From: a virus
Length of the DNA: 30,674 bases
Direction: 5' to 3' (one strand)
Virus record (IMG/VR): IMGVR_UViG_3300011116_000717
Location: 1 to 30,674 of that record
Shown in pieces: positions 1,871 through 17,486 of the stretch. Below the pieces are notes generated by a model. It saw nothing but the letters and a program-made list of their open reading frames with translations. It ran no database searches and was not told where the DNA came from. The number at the start of each line of letters is the position of its first letter. Position 1 is the first letter of the stretch. A program made the translations under genes and the position numbers.

Positions 1871-3855
1871 ATTGGTACTGCACTTGCTCCGCTAGGAGTC
1901 TGATATCTTTCACCTGTCATCGGATTTGTTGGTAAGTTGGGAAGAGATCCTGTAACCTGTTCCAATGGATTTTCTTGACCACCTTGCGATACTTGTGGTA
2001 TTGATGGATTTTCTGGAGTCTTAGGAGGAAGATTCTGCATTCCCAGTATAGCAAATAAATCAGCATCGCCCGTCCGCATTTGGTTAATGTGGTTTTGAAT
2101 ATGTTCTAATACTACCACTACCAGATCGGGATTGTTTCTTGCTTCTGGGCTGTCTAATAATTGCTTGTGTTCGACGATATGCATAGGATGATTGTCGGTT
2201 ACTAATACAGGAGGATCAATTCCGTCATTCATCTGTTCATTTTCCATTGCAATCAGCATCAATTGTCTTTGCACCGGATCTGTAATTGAATCAAGCTTTC
2301 CATTTTGCAGGACACTGAAATACATGTCTGGGTTTTTGATGAATCCGTATTGCATAAGAGTATCAGCAATTTGTATCTTACCTGCAGTTGTTTTGCTCAA
2401 TGGGTTTCCCATATCAACAATAACTCTGTTCACGTTTTCCAGATCGGCTCCTGAAAATTCCTTCATATATGGAGTGTTCATTTTACCTACAATCGTTGCG
2501 ACTCTGGGAACTGTGGCATAAGATTGAAGCATAGAAATAATTGCTGTTCCACTGTCTTCTAATAACTGTACATATCTTTGTTGAGTCAATTGTAAGAATT
2601 GTATTGCTTGTGATGCAACTAGTGCCAATGCTGCCCCAGACTTTAAGCTTGCCTCTGGATTGCCTCTTACTACTGAGTTGATACCGCTTATAGATTCCAT
2701 CTCATTGACTAGTTCTTTGTATCGGTTAAATATCTCAACAGGAGTTGCAGTCAAGTTCATTGGTTCAGGCTTTCCCATCTTAGGATCATACTGGACTATG
2801 TTCAATCCTCCTGACAATTCCTCGACATCAAGATTAGATCCTCTGGGAACTAATACATTCTGCACTCCAAATGCTTCTTGGTTGGTTTGGATTGTCGATG
2901 CTAGACCGTCAACTGCTCTTTGTATAGGAAGCATATCGAACGATACTGAATACCCAAAAGGACTTGCATAGATTGACCCGGGATGAAGAGCAAAGACTGG
3001 AATCTGTGGATATGGAAGATCACTGTCAAATAATACTGTTCCGCCTTCGATAAATTCTGAGTATCTCCCATTTGGAACTGACTGAGTTTTGTCATGGTAG
3101 AATCTATAGAGAGGAATCAAGTCTGAATCTGTGATCCGATAGAAATCAAGGAAGTCATTCTTGAGAGATCCACTTGTCATCTCTGAGTTTATAATGTCTG
3201 TCTCAAAGTCTGGAAATTTCTTCGCCAGTTCATACTTATTCACAAACTCTCTGACTATTAAGTATTGCCTGTCTTCAAACTTTCTCAAGTAAGGATGCCG
3301 TATGATATCAATTCCAGAACAGGACATAAATTTAATATCACCTTCTTTAATTGGTTCGTTATTTTGCCCTACTCCATACTCTCTTCCTAGTGCCACATCC
3401 CAATTAAGAACGACATAACCTTCACCCGACCAAATAGCAAACTCGACCGCGTCCGCAACATATCTTTCAAGTCGCTTTTCTCTCATATAATAATCCAGGA
3501 GACCTTGTGCAAGCTTGGTTTGTGCTTGACTTGAATAGTCGTTATTGATTGCCCTTGCGTCGAATGTCGGTCTCTGTGATACTGTAATAGAAAGGATTGC
3601 CTGAAGGATTGATCTATAATGATTTACGAACAAGAAGGAGTATTCTCCTGCATCTCCACCTCTGACTGTATCGCCAAGATGATATCCTGCTCTGAAGTAT
3701 TGTCTGTAAGACTTTCTCCAAAGATCCAACATTCCATTGATCCTGACATACTGGTAATAATCATCCACTTTCTTTTGGAGTTCTCCGCCGATCTCATCTA
3801 CTGTAAGATTGGCGAAGTAGGTTGCGTCTGAACTTAATTTCGTTTTAGTTAACAT
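1867..3855 (-). CDS. Portal protein
   Basis: At 662 residues it fits podovirus portals. The N-terminal half has RGGDAGEYSFLFVNHYRSI near residue 65 and a segment around FAIWSGEGYVVLNWD near 140. The central part resembles the portal clip and stem region, with GINSVVRGNPEASLKSGAAL near residues 395-415 followed by a long helix. The C-terminal 60 residues are Pro/Gln-rich and probably disordered. The portal forms the dodecameric ring at the capsid vertex through which DNA is packaged and ejected. It starts one base from the terminase stop, so the two are translationally coupled. Homology is judged from pattern and from adjacency to the large terminase. Confidence 0.85.
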   Translation of the reverse strand: MLTKTKLSSDATYFANLTVDEIGGELQKKVDDYYQYVRINGMLDLWRKSYRQYFRAGYHLGDTVRGGDAGEYSFLFVNHYRSILQAILSITVSQRPTFDARAINNDYSSQAQTKLAQGLLDYYMREKRLERYVADAVEFAIWSGEGYVVLNWDVALGREYGVGQNNEPIKEGDIKFMSCSGIDIIRHPYLRKFEDRQYLIVREFVNKYELAKKFPDFETDIINSEMTSGSLKNDFLDFYRITDSDLIPLYRFYHDKTQSVPNGRYSEFIEGGTVLFDSDLPYPQIPVFALHPGSIYASPFGYSVSFDMLPIQRAVDGLASTIQTNQEAFGVQNVLVPRGSNLDVEELSGGLNIVQYDPKMGKPEPMNLTATPVEIFNRYKELVNEMESISGINSVVRGNPEASLKSGAALALVASQAIQFLQLTQQRYVQLLEDSGTAIISMLQSYATVPRVATIVGKMNTPYMKEFSGADLENVNRVIVDMGNPLSKTTAGKIQIADTLMQYGFIKNPDMYFSVLQNGKLDSITDPVQRQLMLIAMENEQMNDGIDPPVLVTDNHPMHIVEHKQLLDSPEARNNPDLVVVVLEHIQNHINQMRTGDADLFAILGMQNLPPKTPENPSIPQVSQGGQENPLEQVTGSLPNLPTNPMTGERYQTPSGASAVPI

Positions 3856-10358: not shown

Positions 10359-11783
10359 TCAATATCCCACCGCCTTCTTACGTCTCAGTATATCAAACTC
10401 CAATTGCTCATCCATAGATAACTTTGTCCCGCTAATCATAATCCTCAATAACTCCTCTTCTCTTAATTTATCTTTCTCATCCAATTGCATTATCGGTCGA
10501 TACTTCTCATCCAATAACTCAATATTTGTATTACTATTCCTTTTATTCATAGCTTCTATTATCTCCGGAACTGTCCTCAATCCCATAGCATGGATCTGGT
10601 CATCCGAAAGATTTGGTCGATTCAGCATGACTTCTTTTACTCGTTCTCTCTCAATGACTCTCTCTCGATCTTTTTCGTATTCCGCTTTTTCCCGTTCCTG
10701 ACGTTTACGAATGACCCTGGATATTTCCCCGTAAATAGCATCAATCTCATTCGACCATCCAGAATGGCAATATTTAAATGTTGGGTTAGCACCTATGTAG
10801 ATCACAAGATTCCTGTTATGGAGATCTACCGGGAGCTTATCCCTAAATTCTTCCCCATGCTTTTTAATCAGGTAAAGCTTTGCCATATTCTCCACTGTTC
10901 CATAAAACTTTTTAGCCAGTGCTTCCCGTTCGGAAGGTGGGGCACTATCATATTGCTGAATTGCCGATCTAATTAGCTCTATATCTTTTGGATCCTCTTT
11001 GACCTGGTAATCGGGTGGTAGCTGCTTGTAGATAGCGTCTAAGATATGACGGGGGTTTTTGGTAAACCCAAACCCAATCGATTGGATGAACTGGTTAGAT
11101 GTGACTAGTAAGTCCTCTACTCTTGCTACTATAGTAGGTGGTGGGGGGGGCTGTTGCAGTTGCTGTTGTCGTGCCCTCTGTTCTGCCATAAGTCGATCAT
11201 TTTCTTCATGTAACAATCTCACTTCTTCATCTAGCTGTCTTTTGATTTCTTCATGAGAAAGTTCAGATTGGGGTTGTGGGGTTTTTTCCACGTCATCTTT
11301 GTAATGAGAGTCGGTCGGTTGTTTTTCTTCCCCCCCATTTTCGGTAGACTCGTTTTCGCCCCCCTTATTGGTATTCTTTATATTGGTATTCTTATTGGTA
11401 TACCCCAAAACCGATACATCGCTTTCCGATATATCGCTTTTAGGTATATCGGTAAATTTATTTCCGAACATGTTTAATATATATGTCCAGTTCCCTTTAT
11501 TCCCAGCCTCTCTAGTAATTTTAAGATAATTGTTTTTTTTGAGTTCCTGGATACCTGTCTGAATAGCTTTTTTACCATCTGATCCATGCTTTATTAATGT
11601 TTTACTGGTTATTGTAAATCGTTCGGTATCGTGACTTAAAAGATGGCATAGTATACCCTTAGCTTTGTAGCTAATGTTTTGATCTGATAGCATCTTATTT
11701 GATACCTGAGTAAAGCCCTGACGGTTTTTTATTATAAATGTTCTAGTTTTTTTCTTGCGTTTTTCTTGTGATGTGTTATTCAT
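10359..11783 (-). CDS. Winged-helix replication initiator-like protein
   Basis: The 474-residue protein has an N-terminal winged helix (about residues 15-105) beginning RQGFTQVSNKMLSDQ, then ISYKAKGILCHLLSH and TLIKHGSDGKKAIQTGIQEL and a closing LKITREAGNKG strand. This is the HTH_36-like domain of phage and plasmid RepA/DnaD-type initiators. A low-complexity linker follows, with KSDISESD and NTNIKNTNK repeats, a Glu/Gln-rich coiled coil and a PPPPP run. The C-terminal half is helical and without recognised motif. It probably binds the phage origin and recruits host helicase. The linker DNA carries tandem repeats that may be binding sites. No phage polymerase is seen, so host enzymes would copy the DNA. 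Confidence 0.75.
   Translation of the reverse strand: MNNTSQEKRKKKTRTFIIKNRQGFTQVSNKMLSDQNISYKAKGILCHLLSHDTERFTITSKTLIKHGSDGKKAIQTGIQELKKNNYLKITREAGNKGNWTYILNMFGNKFTDIPKSDISESDVSVLGYTNKNTNIKNTNKGGENESTENGGEEKQPTDSHYKDDVEKTPQPQSELSHEEIKRQLDEEVRLLHEENDRLMAEQRARQQQLQQPPPPPTIVARVEDLLVTSNQFIQSIGFGFTKNPRHILDAIYKQLPPDYQVKEDPKDIELIRSAIQQYDSAPPSEREALAKKFYGTVENMAKLYLIKKHGEEFRDKLPVDLHNRNLVIYIGANPTFKYCHSGWSNEIDAIYGEISRVIRKRQEREKAEYEKDRERVIERERVKEVMLNRPNLSDDQIHAMGLRTVPEIIEAMNKRNSNTNIELLDEKYRPIMQLDEKDKLREEELLRIMISGTKLSMDEQLEFDILRRKKAVGY
11367..11453. repeat. Tandem short repeats inside the initiator gene, possible origin iterons
   Basis: Two repeat families stand side by side. ATTGGTATTCTT occurs at 11367-11378 and 11382-11393, with a partial copy at 11394-11401. 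A 15-base unit, CCGATAYATCGCTTT, occurs at 11411-11425 and 11426-11440, followed by a diverged copy with ATATCGG to about 11453. Each 15-base unit contains CGATATATCG or a near-palindrome. They encode the protein linker repeats NTN and SDxSESD, so a coding explanation alone is possible. Iterons inside initiator genes are known in lambdoid phages, which makes an origin role plausible. Confidence 0.45.
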
Positions 11784-11825: not shown

Positions 11826-11857
11826 CCGAGTAGGATTTCCGCCTACTCGGTTTTGTT
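11826..11857 (+). terminator. Hairpin with T-run on the plus strand
   Basis: The 9-base-pair stem CCGAGTAGG / CCTACTCGG (11826-11834 and 11842-11850) with a seven-base loop is followed on the plus strand by TTTTGTT. That is the form of an intrinsic terminator for rightward transcripts, although no rightward gene precedes it. On the minus strand it begins eight bases after the antirepressor stop but lacks a trailing T-run, so there it could act as an RNA-stabilising or weak attenuating hairpin between antirepressor and initiator. Confidence 0.5.
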
Positions 11858-12559
11858 CTAACGTTCTACTAAATAATCTACTTCTATTTTTTCCATAAGA
11901 TTTTGATATCTTTTGGATAAGTAAACATAACCTTCTGGAGTTATCAAAATTTTTTCTCTGGACTCTTCATTTTTAATAACTCTTTGAATTTTAAAGTATT
12001 TAGAATATTGTTGATAAGGATGGTTTCTATTAGGATAATCCATAAGAATTCCATCATTCCTTAGTATCTCTAAAAACTTATTTTTACCTACAATTATTTT
12101 AAAATTATCAATAAACTCCTTAACACTAAAATTTGTTCTATGTCCTATTATGCTTTCGGCAAGTTCTACTTTTGGCTTATCTTGTTCAATTTTTCTTGCT
12201 TGTTCTTCTATTTTTTCATATTGATCGGCTGCTAGTCTTAATGCCTCAGCAAAATCTTTAGGCATACTTCTTTTTTTTAGTTCTTCCTGAAGTCTGATCT
12301 CAAAAATAAAATCTTGTGCTTTTTTAGTATTCCCCATTAGTTCAGCTAATTTTATTATTCCAATTCCTGACCAAACAATAGATAATTTTGAACCTGTAAC
12401 AGTCGTTACGGGTTCAGATTTCCAGTGAATATATTCTGTTAAATTATTTAAGTTTCGAGATTTGCACATTCTTATAGCATCAGGAGTACAATCAAAACCT
12501 TTTGCTACTTGTTCGGTTGTATACCAATTATTTGAGACATTATTATATGTTAGTTCCAT
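11858..12559 (-). CDS. KilA-C type phage antirepressor
   Basis: The 233-residue protein has an N-terminal region with a helix-turn-helix-like start (WYTTEQVAKGFDCTPDAIR, residues 12-30). A helical linker rich in Glu/Lys follows around 90-130. The C-terminal domain is typical of KilA-C antirepressors: KNKFLEILRNDGILMDYP, NHPYQQYSKYFKI, and ITPEGYVYLSKRY near 207-220. Such proteins bind or titrate phage repressors and promote lytic growth, or act as DNA-binding regulators. The start at 12559 is preceded by AAGGAG that lies within a hairpin in the leader, suggesting translational control. No partner repressor was recognised in the window. Confidence 0.8.
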   Translation of the reverse strand: MELTYNNVSNNWYTTEQVAKGFDCTPDAIRMCKSRNLNNLTEYIHWKSEPVTTVTGSKLSIVWSGIGIIKLAELMGNTKKAQDFIFEIRLQEELKKRSMPKDFAEALRLAADQYEKIEEQARKIEQDKPKVELAESIIGHRTNFSVKEFIDNFKIIVGKNKFLEILRNDGILMDYPNRNHPYQQYSKYFKIQRVIKNEESREKILITPEGYVYLSKRYQNLMEKIEVDYLVER

Positions 12560-12662
12560 TCTATGGACTCCTTGTAGTTGAGTCCCGATGTGGGTAGATA
12601 TTGCGGTAGGATTGATTCTCCCTCAAGAATCTACCCGATGTGAGGGCATCGGGCTTAATGCT
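12560..12662 (-). promoter_or_regulatory. Structured 5' leader of the antirepressor mRNA, possible bistable RNA switch
   Basis: Reading the minus strand, arm A CCCGATG (12653-12647) can pair with A' CATCGGG (12640-12634) or with a second copy A'' (12590-12584). Arm B GGGTAGAT (12636-12629) pairs with B' ATCTACCC (12599-12592). Arm C GGACTC (12585-12580) pairs with GAGTCC (12570-12565), which covers the AAGGAG ribosome binding site (12573-12568). A' overlaps B and A'' overlaps C. So A:A'' with nested B:B' excludes A:A' and competes with the site-hiding hairpin. Pairing is seen; switching is inferred. Confidence 0.5.
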
Positions 12663-12690
12663 ATGTTATGTCGCTTGCTTATTTTGTAAA
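12663..12690 (-). promoter_or_regulatory. Candidate promoter for the antirepressor
   Basis: On the minus strand TTTACA (12690-12685) is followed after 16 bases by TAACAT (12668-12663), with 5 of 6 and 4 of 6 matches to the sigma70 boxes. The predicted start near 12656 falls just before the first arm of the structured leader. It lies between the CoiA-like gene and the antirepressor, where a separate promoter makes sense. The match is modest in an AT-rich genome. Confidence 0.35.
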
Positions 12691-12711
12691 GTTATTTTTC
12701 ATCTATTATTT

Positions 12712-13701
12712 TTAAAATAATTGTAACTCTTTCATTCTTTTTTCATTAATTATATTTTTTTGTTCATTTATTGTTTTTGTAAGTTCATTAATAGTATTTT
12801 TTAATTTATCTATTTCAATTGTTAATTCTAAACTTTTTATTTGAGCTACATTTTTATCTACTAAAAGAATATGTTGATTTTTATTAAAATATTCTTGCCA
12901 TTTATTTTTTAATGCTTTTTCTACCTTTTCTTTAAAATCATTATTTTTAATATCTTCAATTTTTTTATTAAAATCAGATTCTAATTTTATTTTTAATATA
13001 TCTTTAAATTCATTCTCTCTTTTTTTTATTTCTAATAATTGATTGTTAAAATACTCATCTTTATATATTTGCAATTGAAGATTATAGCAACTTGTATATG
13101 TTTTATTAATAAAATGTTCATAATTAAAATTACTTTTTAACTCTTCAAATATTAAATTATCAACTATCTGTATATTTAAAATATTTTTATGTTCATATAT
13201 ATACAATAAATTGTTATAATTATTGTATATATCAGAAATAAAATTTTTTCTTAATCTTATTTCTTTTAATTTAAAAGGATGAAATTGTTTATAAAAATTT
13301 AATTCTATAGATTTATCATTATAATCAAAAACCCAAATTAATTTTTTTCTTAATTTATTTATATAAAATTCACATCTTGATTTAAATTCATTCATAGATA
13401 TAGCTGAATGCTGAAATTCAAAAATAAAATTATTAATACTTACGTCAGCAATATGTTTTTCTCCAGTATCTTCATCTGTATAAATAATTTCTCTATTTTC
13501 CTCTGGAAATTTATTTTGCCACTCATAATGCCATTGAGTCATTTGTTTGTAATTGCAGTTTGTATCTCCTTTATGAGACCAATGATGAATATTAATTTCT
13601 CCCATTTTAGCTATTAAATATTCATTGCAACTTGGGCAATATCCATCTATTTCTTTGGTTGGTTGTATTCTATTTTTATTTTTATCCAAAGCAAACTGCA
13701 T
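12712..13701 (-). CDS. CoiA-like nuclease
   Basis: The 329-residue protein has the N-terminal CoiA zinc-binding part, CPSC at residues 22-25 with HHWSHK at 39-44 and Cys49. A nuclease core follows with HIADV (Asp86) and FEFQHS (Glu95, Gln97), then an RCEFYINK helix and IWVFDYND. That D...ExQ arrangement is the CoiA/restriction-like pattern. The C-terminal half is Lys/Asn-rich and ends in a coiled coil. In competence, CoiA acts on incoming DNA; in a phage it may be a recombination or selfish nuclease. The gene is more AT-rich than its neighbours, which suggests recent acquisition. GGAGG precedes the start at 13701. Confidence 0.7.
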   Translation of the reverse strand: MQFALDKNKNRIQPTKEIDGYCPSCNEYLIAKMGEINIHHWSHKGDTNCNYKQMTQWHYEWQNKFPEENREIIYTDEDTGEKHIADVSINNFIFEFQHSAISMNEFKSRCEFYINKLRKKLIWVFDYNDKSIELNFYKQFHPFKLKEIRLRKNFISDIYNNYNNLLYIYEHKNILNIQIVDNLIFEELKSNFNYEHFINKTYTSCYNLQLQIYKDEYFNNQLLEIKKRENEFKDILKIKLESDFNKKIEDIKNNDFKEKVEKALKNKWQEYFNKNQHILLVDKNVAQIKSLELTIEIDKLKNTINELTKTINEQKNIINEKRMKELQLF

Positions 13702-16985: not shown

Positions 16986-17486
16986 ATGAATAACCAATCT
17001 AAATTTTTCGAATTTTTCAAAACCAAAAGACTAAAACTAACCATTGCAATATTCTTCGGAACCGTAGGAATAGTATCTAACTACTCAGCTATTAAGTATT
17101 ATCTATTACAAACTAGAATGGATCTAATCCAATCTGAGACCACTCTTACAATCTATGCACTAGGTATTTCTCTCAGTCTGGACATAGCTATTATTGTATT
17201 TCATCTTATGAGGACATATGCACTTATGTGGGGATCTGTGTTGCTAGCTTTTCTTGTGAGTGTGACTGCTAATACTAATACGTTTTTATCTTGTGCCGGA
17301 TCTTGTAAGCAACCCATTGACGATCCAGGAGCATTGCTTGCATTTTGTCAGGCTTTGATTATGAGTTTATTGCCGATTGTAATTATAATCTATCTGACTG
17401 AATTGGCTGTTCAGCAATACGATAAAGAGATAAAATTTACTACTCAGACTTACAATAATAGTTGGCAAGATATAAAGTTAGATTAA
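16986..17486 (+). CDS. Four-helix membrane protein
   Basis: The protein has 166 residues. Hydrophobic segments lie at about 18-40, 52-72, 76-96 and 113-141. The N-terminus is short and basic (KTKRLKLT), which suggests it stays in the cytoplasm. The loop before the last helix has two close cysteines (CAGSC). AGGAG precedes ATG. No family was recognised. As one of only two rightward genes in the genome it is set apart from the lytic transcript, the position where phages often keep immunity, superinfection exclusion or lysogenic conversion genes. That role is inferred. Confidence 0.7.
   Translation: MNNQSKFFEFFKTKRLKLTIAIFFGTVGIVSNYSAIKYYLLQTRMDLIQSETTLTIYALGISLSLDIAIIVFHLMRTYALMWGSVLLAFLVSVTANTNTFLSCAGSCKQPIDDPGALLAFCQALIMSLLPIVIIIYLTELAVQQYDKEIKFTTQTYNNSWQDIKLD

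Follow-up and report, generated by a model that had tools for sequence, protein, structure and literature searches.

The sar RNA of phage P22 is a separate antisense RNA that controls an antirepressor gene. In phage P1, as annotated in AF234172, a promoter is followed by a structured RNA, a pair of short target sites, the first gene and ant, and the b2 target site lies at the ribosome site of icd. The IsrK RNA of the Salmonella prophage Gifsy-1 lies ahead of the antirepressor gene anrP (isrK-orf45-anrP), and has a short form that acts in trans; experiments showed that it adopts two alternative structures, one of them translationally silent, whose predicted energies are almost the same (PMC4825925).

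Here we describe a leader RNA of about 100 nt that precedes an antirepressor-type gene in an uncultured phage, within a window of 30,674 nucleotides (positions 1 to 30,674 of IMG/VR record IMGVR_UViG_3300011116_000717). We consider it rather probable that this leader forms the 5' end of a phage early-operon mRNA and acts there in cis as a bistable element of translational control, and the two mutually exclusive folds proposed for it have strong comparative support across ten relatives.

The leader and its proposed folds

All elements of the leader (12656 to 12559) are on the minus strand, in the interval bounded by a CoiA-like gene that ends at 12712 and an antirepressor-type gene whose start codon is at 12559. 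This first gene (11858..12559, minus strand) encodes a 233-aa protein with a KilAC C-terminal domain (PF03374, 2.4e-13; phrog_63, 9.3e-21), and the second (10359..11783, minus strand) encodes a replication-initiation-like protein (phrog_4707 and others). The operon that includes this initiator gene begins with the leader. Just upstream of the leader is a promoter-like sequence, TTTACA-16-TAACAT (12663..12690, minus strand), a weak consensus match (9/12) that is no better than chance for the region; TTTACA stands 31 nt ahead of arm A in the window and in the relatives L018 and L029, though the intervening sequence differs. Judging from this promoter-like sequence, the transcript would begin just upstream of arm A and not downstream of arm B, where a start would be at odds with the folding put forward in the first-pass annotation. 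Elsewhere in the window we noted a strong palindrome (CCGAGTAGG...CCTACTCGG, then TTTTG) on the plus strand at 11826-11850, between the antirepressor and initiator genes, and a single plus-strand ORF amid the minus-strand genes (16986-17486), whose 166-aa product has hydrophobic stretches and no PHROG match. The best terminase match in the phage collection was to a Silvanigrella phage, at 29% identity.

The first-pass annotation held that two copies of CATCGGG compete for one CCCGATG arm, and that long-range pairing of A with A'', with B:B' nested inside it, overlaps the arm of the hairpin masking AAGGAG. All of these elements are present on the minus strand, and the overlap is as it described. 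Arm A (CCCGATG, 12653-12647) can pair across loop 1 (CCCTCA, 12646-12641) with arm A' (CATCGGG, 12640-12634), the 3' side of hairpin 1, or with the more distant arm A'' (CATCGGG, 12590-12584). The GGG of A' also starts arm B (GGGTAGAT, 12636-12629), which runs across the junction of hairpins 1 and 2 and has as its partner arm B' (ATCTACCC, 12599-12592), whose 3' end can alternatively pair with the start codon region. Hairpin 2 (GATTCT-TGAGGG-AGAATC, 12614..12631), separated from hairpin 1 by 1-2 nt, carries loop 2 (TGAGGG, 12625-12620), an exact complement of loop 1 that the first-pass annotation had missed. The joining segment that follows (12600..12613) has a C-rich core, CCTNCC, and is unpaired in both states, with some of its columns invariant in alignment A2. 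The last GG of A'' forms the first two bases of the anti-SD arm GGACTC (12585-12580), which together with GAGTCC (12570-12565) makes up the SD-masking hairpin (12565..12585) around the SD AAGGAG (12573-12568); the end of A'' is 24 nt from the start codon. A direct repeat, CCCGATGTG, is present twice.

We propose that in state 1 hairpins 1 and 2 would form and leave B' and A'' free; the end of A'' would then form a helix across the SD (GGAC:GUCC), and that of B' would base-pair with the start codon region (CCAU:AUGG), turning translation off. In state 2, A would capture A'' and B would capture B', consuming both the anti-SD arm and the partner of the start codon, and the SD would become accessible, from which we infer that translation is on. 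The switch may be triggered by a ligand, by a protein of the phage or the host, or by co-transcriptional timing. Through the complementary loops, state 2 or a folding intermediate would probably also contain an H-type pseudoknot. This is favoured because a full 6-bp kiss between intact hairpins only 1-2 nt apart would be sterically hard: fully paired 6-nt loops form a near-collinear stack, a geometry that intact hairpins joined by so short a linker could hardly attain, and a full intramolecular kiss of the two intact hairpins was set aside by this geometric reasoning. On the same reasoning, the loops more likely pair within an H-type pseudoknot, formed together with B:B' or with hairpin 1 by itself, or else in an intermolecular contact.

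Relatives and the exchange of flanking genes

Scanning IMG/VR with exact and degenerate patterns, together with protein searches, identified nine further records with the promoter-plus-leader cassette, giving ten uncultured phages in total, and a relative of the initiator gene lies downstream in all of them (10/10). When the covariance model was run against the whole records, we found one convincing copy in each (10/10); the weak second hits were the opposite strand of the same site, except for one at E 0.17 in G001. The element is present in every record that has an initiator of the window's family and enough upstream sequence, a count that leaves aside L062 and L030, whose records are cut just inside the initiator gene. 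It is absent from the distant antirepressor relatives L004-L014 and from partial initiator relatives. Among known phage records the leader had no DNA match and its L018 variant had chance matches only, and in the genome collection a narrow pattern gave zero hits and a broad pattern gave 8, all of which proved to lack complementary loops when inspected. Of 13 hits in one scan, six (L019, L021, L022, L023, L026 and L027) were discarded as unrelated hairpins.

Both the gene before the element and the first gene after it are exchanged among the relatives. Mean identity was 81-87% for the promoter segment and leader (87% for the promoter segment, 10 relatives) and 62-67% for the flanking segments, all of these values being flattered by averages that ignore gapped columns. 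The first gene is of antirepressor type in most relatives, with KilAC, BRO-N plus KilAC, or a weak Rha-like match and related N-termini. In L017 it encodes a 134-aa protein without a family match, and in L024 a 90-aa protein comes first, followed by a BRO-N protein. The antirepressor-type genes of L020, L024, L025 and L031 have a near-identical C-terminal domain (HLYHRITIYGKKFRPDLDQS...) and differing N-termini (BRO-N, weakly Rha-like, unassigned), which we read as domain shuffling directly downstream of the RNA cassette. At the other end, the differing upstream genes of L015, L016, L017, L024 and L025 stop at or near CTTTACA, which suggests that this edge of the cassette is a recombination boundary. 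We also observed, at 2216-3103 relative to the element in L046 (G005, IMGVR_UViG_3300008114_000091), a ThyX-like ORF broken after about 27 residues, then a GIY-YIG nuclease-like insert and a separate ORF resembling the remainder of ThyX; judged by eye, this looks like a homing insertion.

Compensatory changes, folding energies and predicted ribosome access

In the ten-sequence alignment, 99.5% of cells in the state 1 helices and loop1:loop2 were paired and 9 of the 19 pairs were changed on both sides; none of 500 shuffles reached this score, and slid controls were 37-61% paired. The two loops are perfect complements in all ten sequences, which fall into five types (CCCTCA/TGAGGG, CCCATA/TATGGG, CGCCCA/TGGGCG, CCGTCA/TGACGG and TCCCTAT/ATAGGGA). 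Two pairs of the hairpin 2 stem are changed on both sides in five of the ten sequences, as are three base pairs of hairpin 1 in L031. When arms were swapped among the sequences, own partners paired better than swapped ones for loop1:loop2 (6.1 bp versus 3.99; 1/20000 permutations), the hairpin 2 stem (6.0 versus 4.61; 70/20000) and B:B' (7.8 versus 6.73; 105/20000), and A:A'' covaried weakly (1962/20000 permutations reached the observed value); these counts are optimistic, the ten phages being close kin whose changes are not independent events. The arms and states were picked by inspection of the same ten sequences.

State 2 as a whole scored barely above shuffles on alignment A2, partly because L031 is misaligned there. 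One B:B' pair changes from A-U to G-C in four sequences, and because the base concerned sits between the two hairpins, where it has no state 1 partner, this change is explained by state 2 alone. The earlier expectation that the arms would not vary without compensation in related phages is mostly borne out; it falls short for A:A'', which is down to 4, 5 and 6 bp in L024, L031 and L015, respectively, and appears to rest more on conservation than on covariation. Positions with two alternative partners (A, the GGG common to A' and B, and the GAT common to hairpin 2 and B) had a mean entropy of 0.11, with 10 of 13 invariant, versus 0.55 for positions with one partner (Mann-Whitney p 0.0013). Such bases would be near frozen because drift would need two compensations, which fits a switch, and frozen two-partner bases beside drifting one-partner bases are the evolutionary pattern expected of a two-state RNA. 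A further helix, between loop1-A' and the spacer of B' and A'', is suggestive only: L031 has 6 bp of it (0.6% of spacer shuffles), L018, L024 and L025 have 5 bp (3-8%), and no other sequence has more than 3 bp. We rejected a pairing between arm B and the middle CCTACC, as it fails in relatives with CCTTCC or a GGGTGG arm B.

The leader stretch folds better than 200 of 200 dinucleotide shuffles (z -3.3), and a 7-nt arm with two exact partners arose in 1 of 2000 shuffles of the 101-nt leader. The first-pass annotation had proposed comparing the energies of its two states, and constrained folds make them nearly isoenergetic, at -31.7 and -31.0 kcal/mol, as computed with secondary-structure models whose scope does not extend to pseudoknots. 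The ensemble energy gap between the states is about 3 kcal/mol or less in nine of the ten sequences. Opening of the SD and AUG is predicted to cost on average 8.1 kcal/mol in state 1 versus 4.6 kcal/mol in state 2, with state 1 higher in all ten sequences, the two being nearly equal in L025 (6.3 versus 6.1). For state 1, a hairpin involving the SD is predicted in 10/10; its arms differ in L024, and L025 and L031 have an internal hairpin. In the state 1 models of most relatives, the start codon region pairs with the end of B' or with bases flanking A'', and in L017, which has a GTG start, this pairing is CAC:GUG. The state 2 models keep a small local hairpin partly masking the AUG, and the 'on' direction is thus an uncertain prediction. 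When the window leader was grown in silico (MFE versus length), hairpins 1 and 2 were followed by state 2 at 72-90 nt, and from 96 nt onwards state 1 returned together with the SD hairpin; this order would suit a kinetic switch, but MFE versus length is not equivalent to simulating kinetics.

Of the two readings offered at the outset, a bistable switch or an antisense-controlled leader, the former is well supported, given compensatory changes in the helices of both states and predicted SD masking throughout. An antisense RNA in the form of P22 sar is not supported, as no opposite-strand promoter-like site was found in 12480-12760 by a search that detects sigma-70-like sites only.

Alternative readings and known RNA systems

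The main rival to cis translational control is action in trans, in which the 5' half of the leader (hairpins 1 and 2) would be processed to a small RNA, as for P1 c4 or IsrK, and would pair with B' and A'' of transcripts from the same operon. The order of parts is that of P1, the antirepressor-type first genes of most relatives would suit such a regulator, the loops and arms change in concert as in immunity-type antisense RNAs, and IsrK activates an antirepressor mRNA in trans by such logic (PMC4825925). However, no terminator-like site, and hence no IsrK-type short-isoform terminator, was found in 12480-12760, and an intrinsic terminator between the halves gave weak hits in L018 only. The C4 model RF01695 matched 0/10 records at E up to 10, while its P1 control scored 68.8 bits (9.9e-15). 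In P1, about 10 nt separate the end of b2 from the icd start, whereas the end of A'' lies farther from its start codon and A'' overlaps the anti-SD arm, so that pairing there would open rather than cover the SD. On balance trans action seems doubtful to us. It is quite unlikely, in our judgement, that the complementary loops pair between transcripts and that the leader thereby gauges the number of its own transcripts, hence of genome copies, and flips the first early gene; if they did, the diverged yet matched loop pairs would form specificity groups, as in plasmid copy-number control. A leader that binds a protein or ligand (an autogenous operator or riboswitch), with the C-rich joining segment and a loop pseudoknot as the binding site, could draw on the partly invariant unpaired CCTNCC and on the H-type pseudoknot that loop1:loop2 could form with B:B', but the loops are the most variable parts of the element, unlike a ligand pocket, and no Rfam aptamer matched at E up to 10. 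We regard this as unlikely; it would be compatible with a cis switch and mainly concerns the trigger.

Two hairpins standing 1-2 nt apart where an early operon begins, immediately behind a promoter-like sequence, also recall the put RNA of phage HK022, which modifies RNA polymerase from the very start of the early transcript, and putL likewise comprises two stem-loops in about 70 nt just after PL (PMC9378689). Yet put would need neither loop1:loop2, nor complementarity to B' and A'', nor SD masking, and the HK022 genome gave no match to covariance model R1 (E up to 10); a put-like function is, we think, very improbable. We find it scarcely credible that the locus has one static fold only, or works at the DNA level as an operator, origin or recombination boundary, with the second state a by-product of repeated motifs: the direct repeat and the use of the cassette edge as a gene replacement point in several phages would be accounted for, but compensatory changes in loop1:loop2 and B:B' require single-strand pairing, and in every case the cassette runs up to an SD and start codon region with which it can pair.

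What the cis-acting two-state leader would serve can be considered from gene content. Tyrosine integrase (PF00589) and HTH_3 (PF01381) were absent from nine records of about 19-32 kb, which are possibly incomplete, and all control genomes gave matches. A role in lysogeny is therefore doubtful, and early-gene timing or dosage is as likely a role as a lysogeny decision. Bistable RNA leaders have often been inferred from one sequence, and here the pairings of mutually exclusive states are compensated across ten phages. Alongside c4, sar and IsrK, the element would be a further, compact case of RNA control linked to antirepressors, in phages with no detected integrase or HTH_3 repressor. It stands at the entry of the early operon, lacks an Rfam family and is small enough for direct mutational and probing tests.

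As an RNA family the leader appears to be new. None of the Rfam 15 families matched it at E up to 10 (only chance microRNA hits occurred, away from the element), nor did C4, and the earlier remark that its layout had no match stands to that extent, with P1 c4 and Gifsy-1 IsrK as partial precedents. Like P22 sar, it would control an antirepressor gene at the RNA level, but sar is encoded as a separate antisense RNA. With HK022 put it would share two adjacent stem-loops near the start of an early phage transcript, a start placed here by promoter-like sequence, and it adds long-range arms and SD masking. We judge it most similar in layout to P1 c4 and in logic to Gifsy-1 IsrK. As in P1/P7 C4 (RF01695), a promoter (here only consensus-like) is followed by a structured RNA with two short antisense arms, two target sites, the first gene and an antirepressor, with A and B facing A'' and B' ahead of the first gene. 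Unlike in C4, the loops are complementary to each other, and target site A'' overlaps the SD-masking strand rather than the SD, so that pairing is predicted to lower the cost of opening the SD and AUG. The pairing of IsrK with an upstream ORF spans about 30 nt, and IsrK has a terminator and a proven trans-acting short isoform, whereas the pairing arms of the leader are 7-8 nt long and lie within about 100 nt, with no terminator seen. Like IsrK, the leader would be a promoter-proximal RNA before an antirepressor gene with two near-isoenergetic folds, known here from computed folding and covariation.
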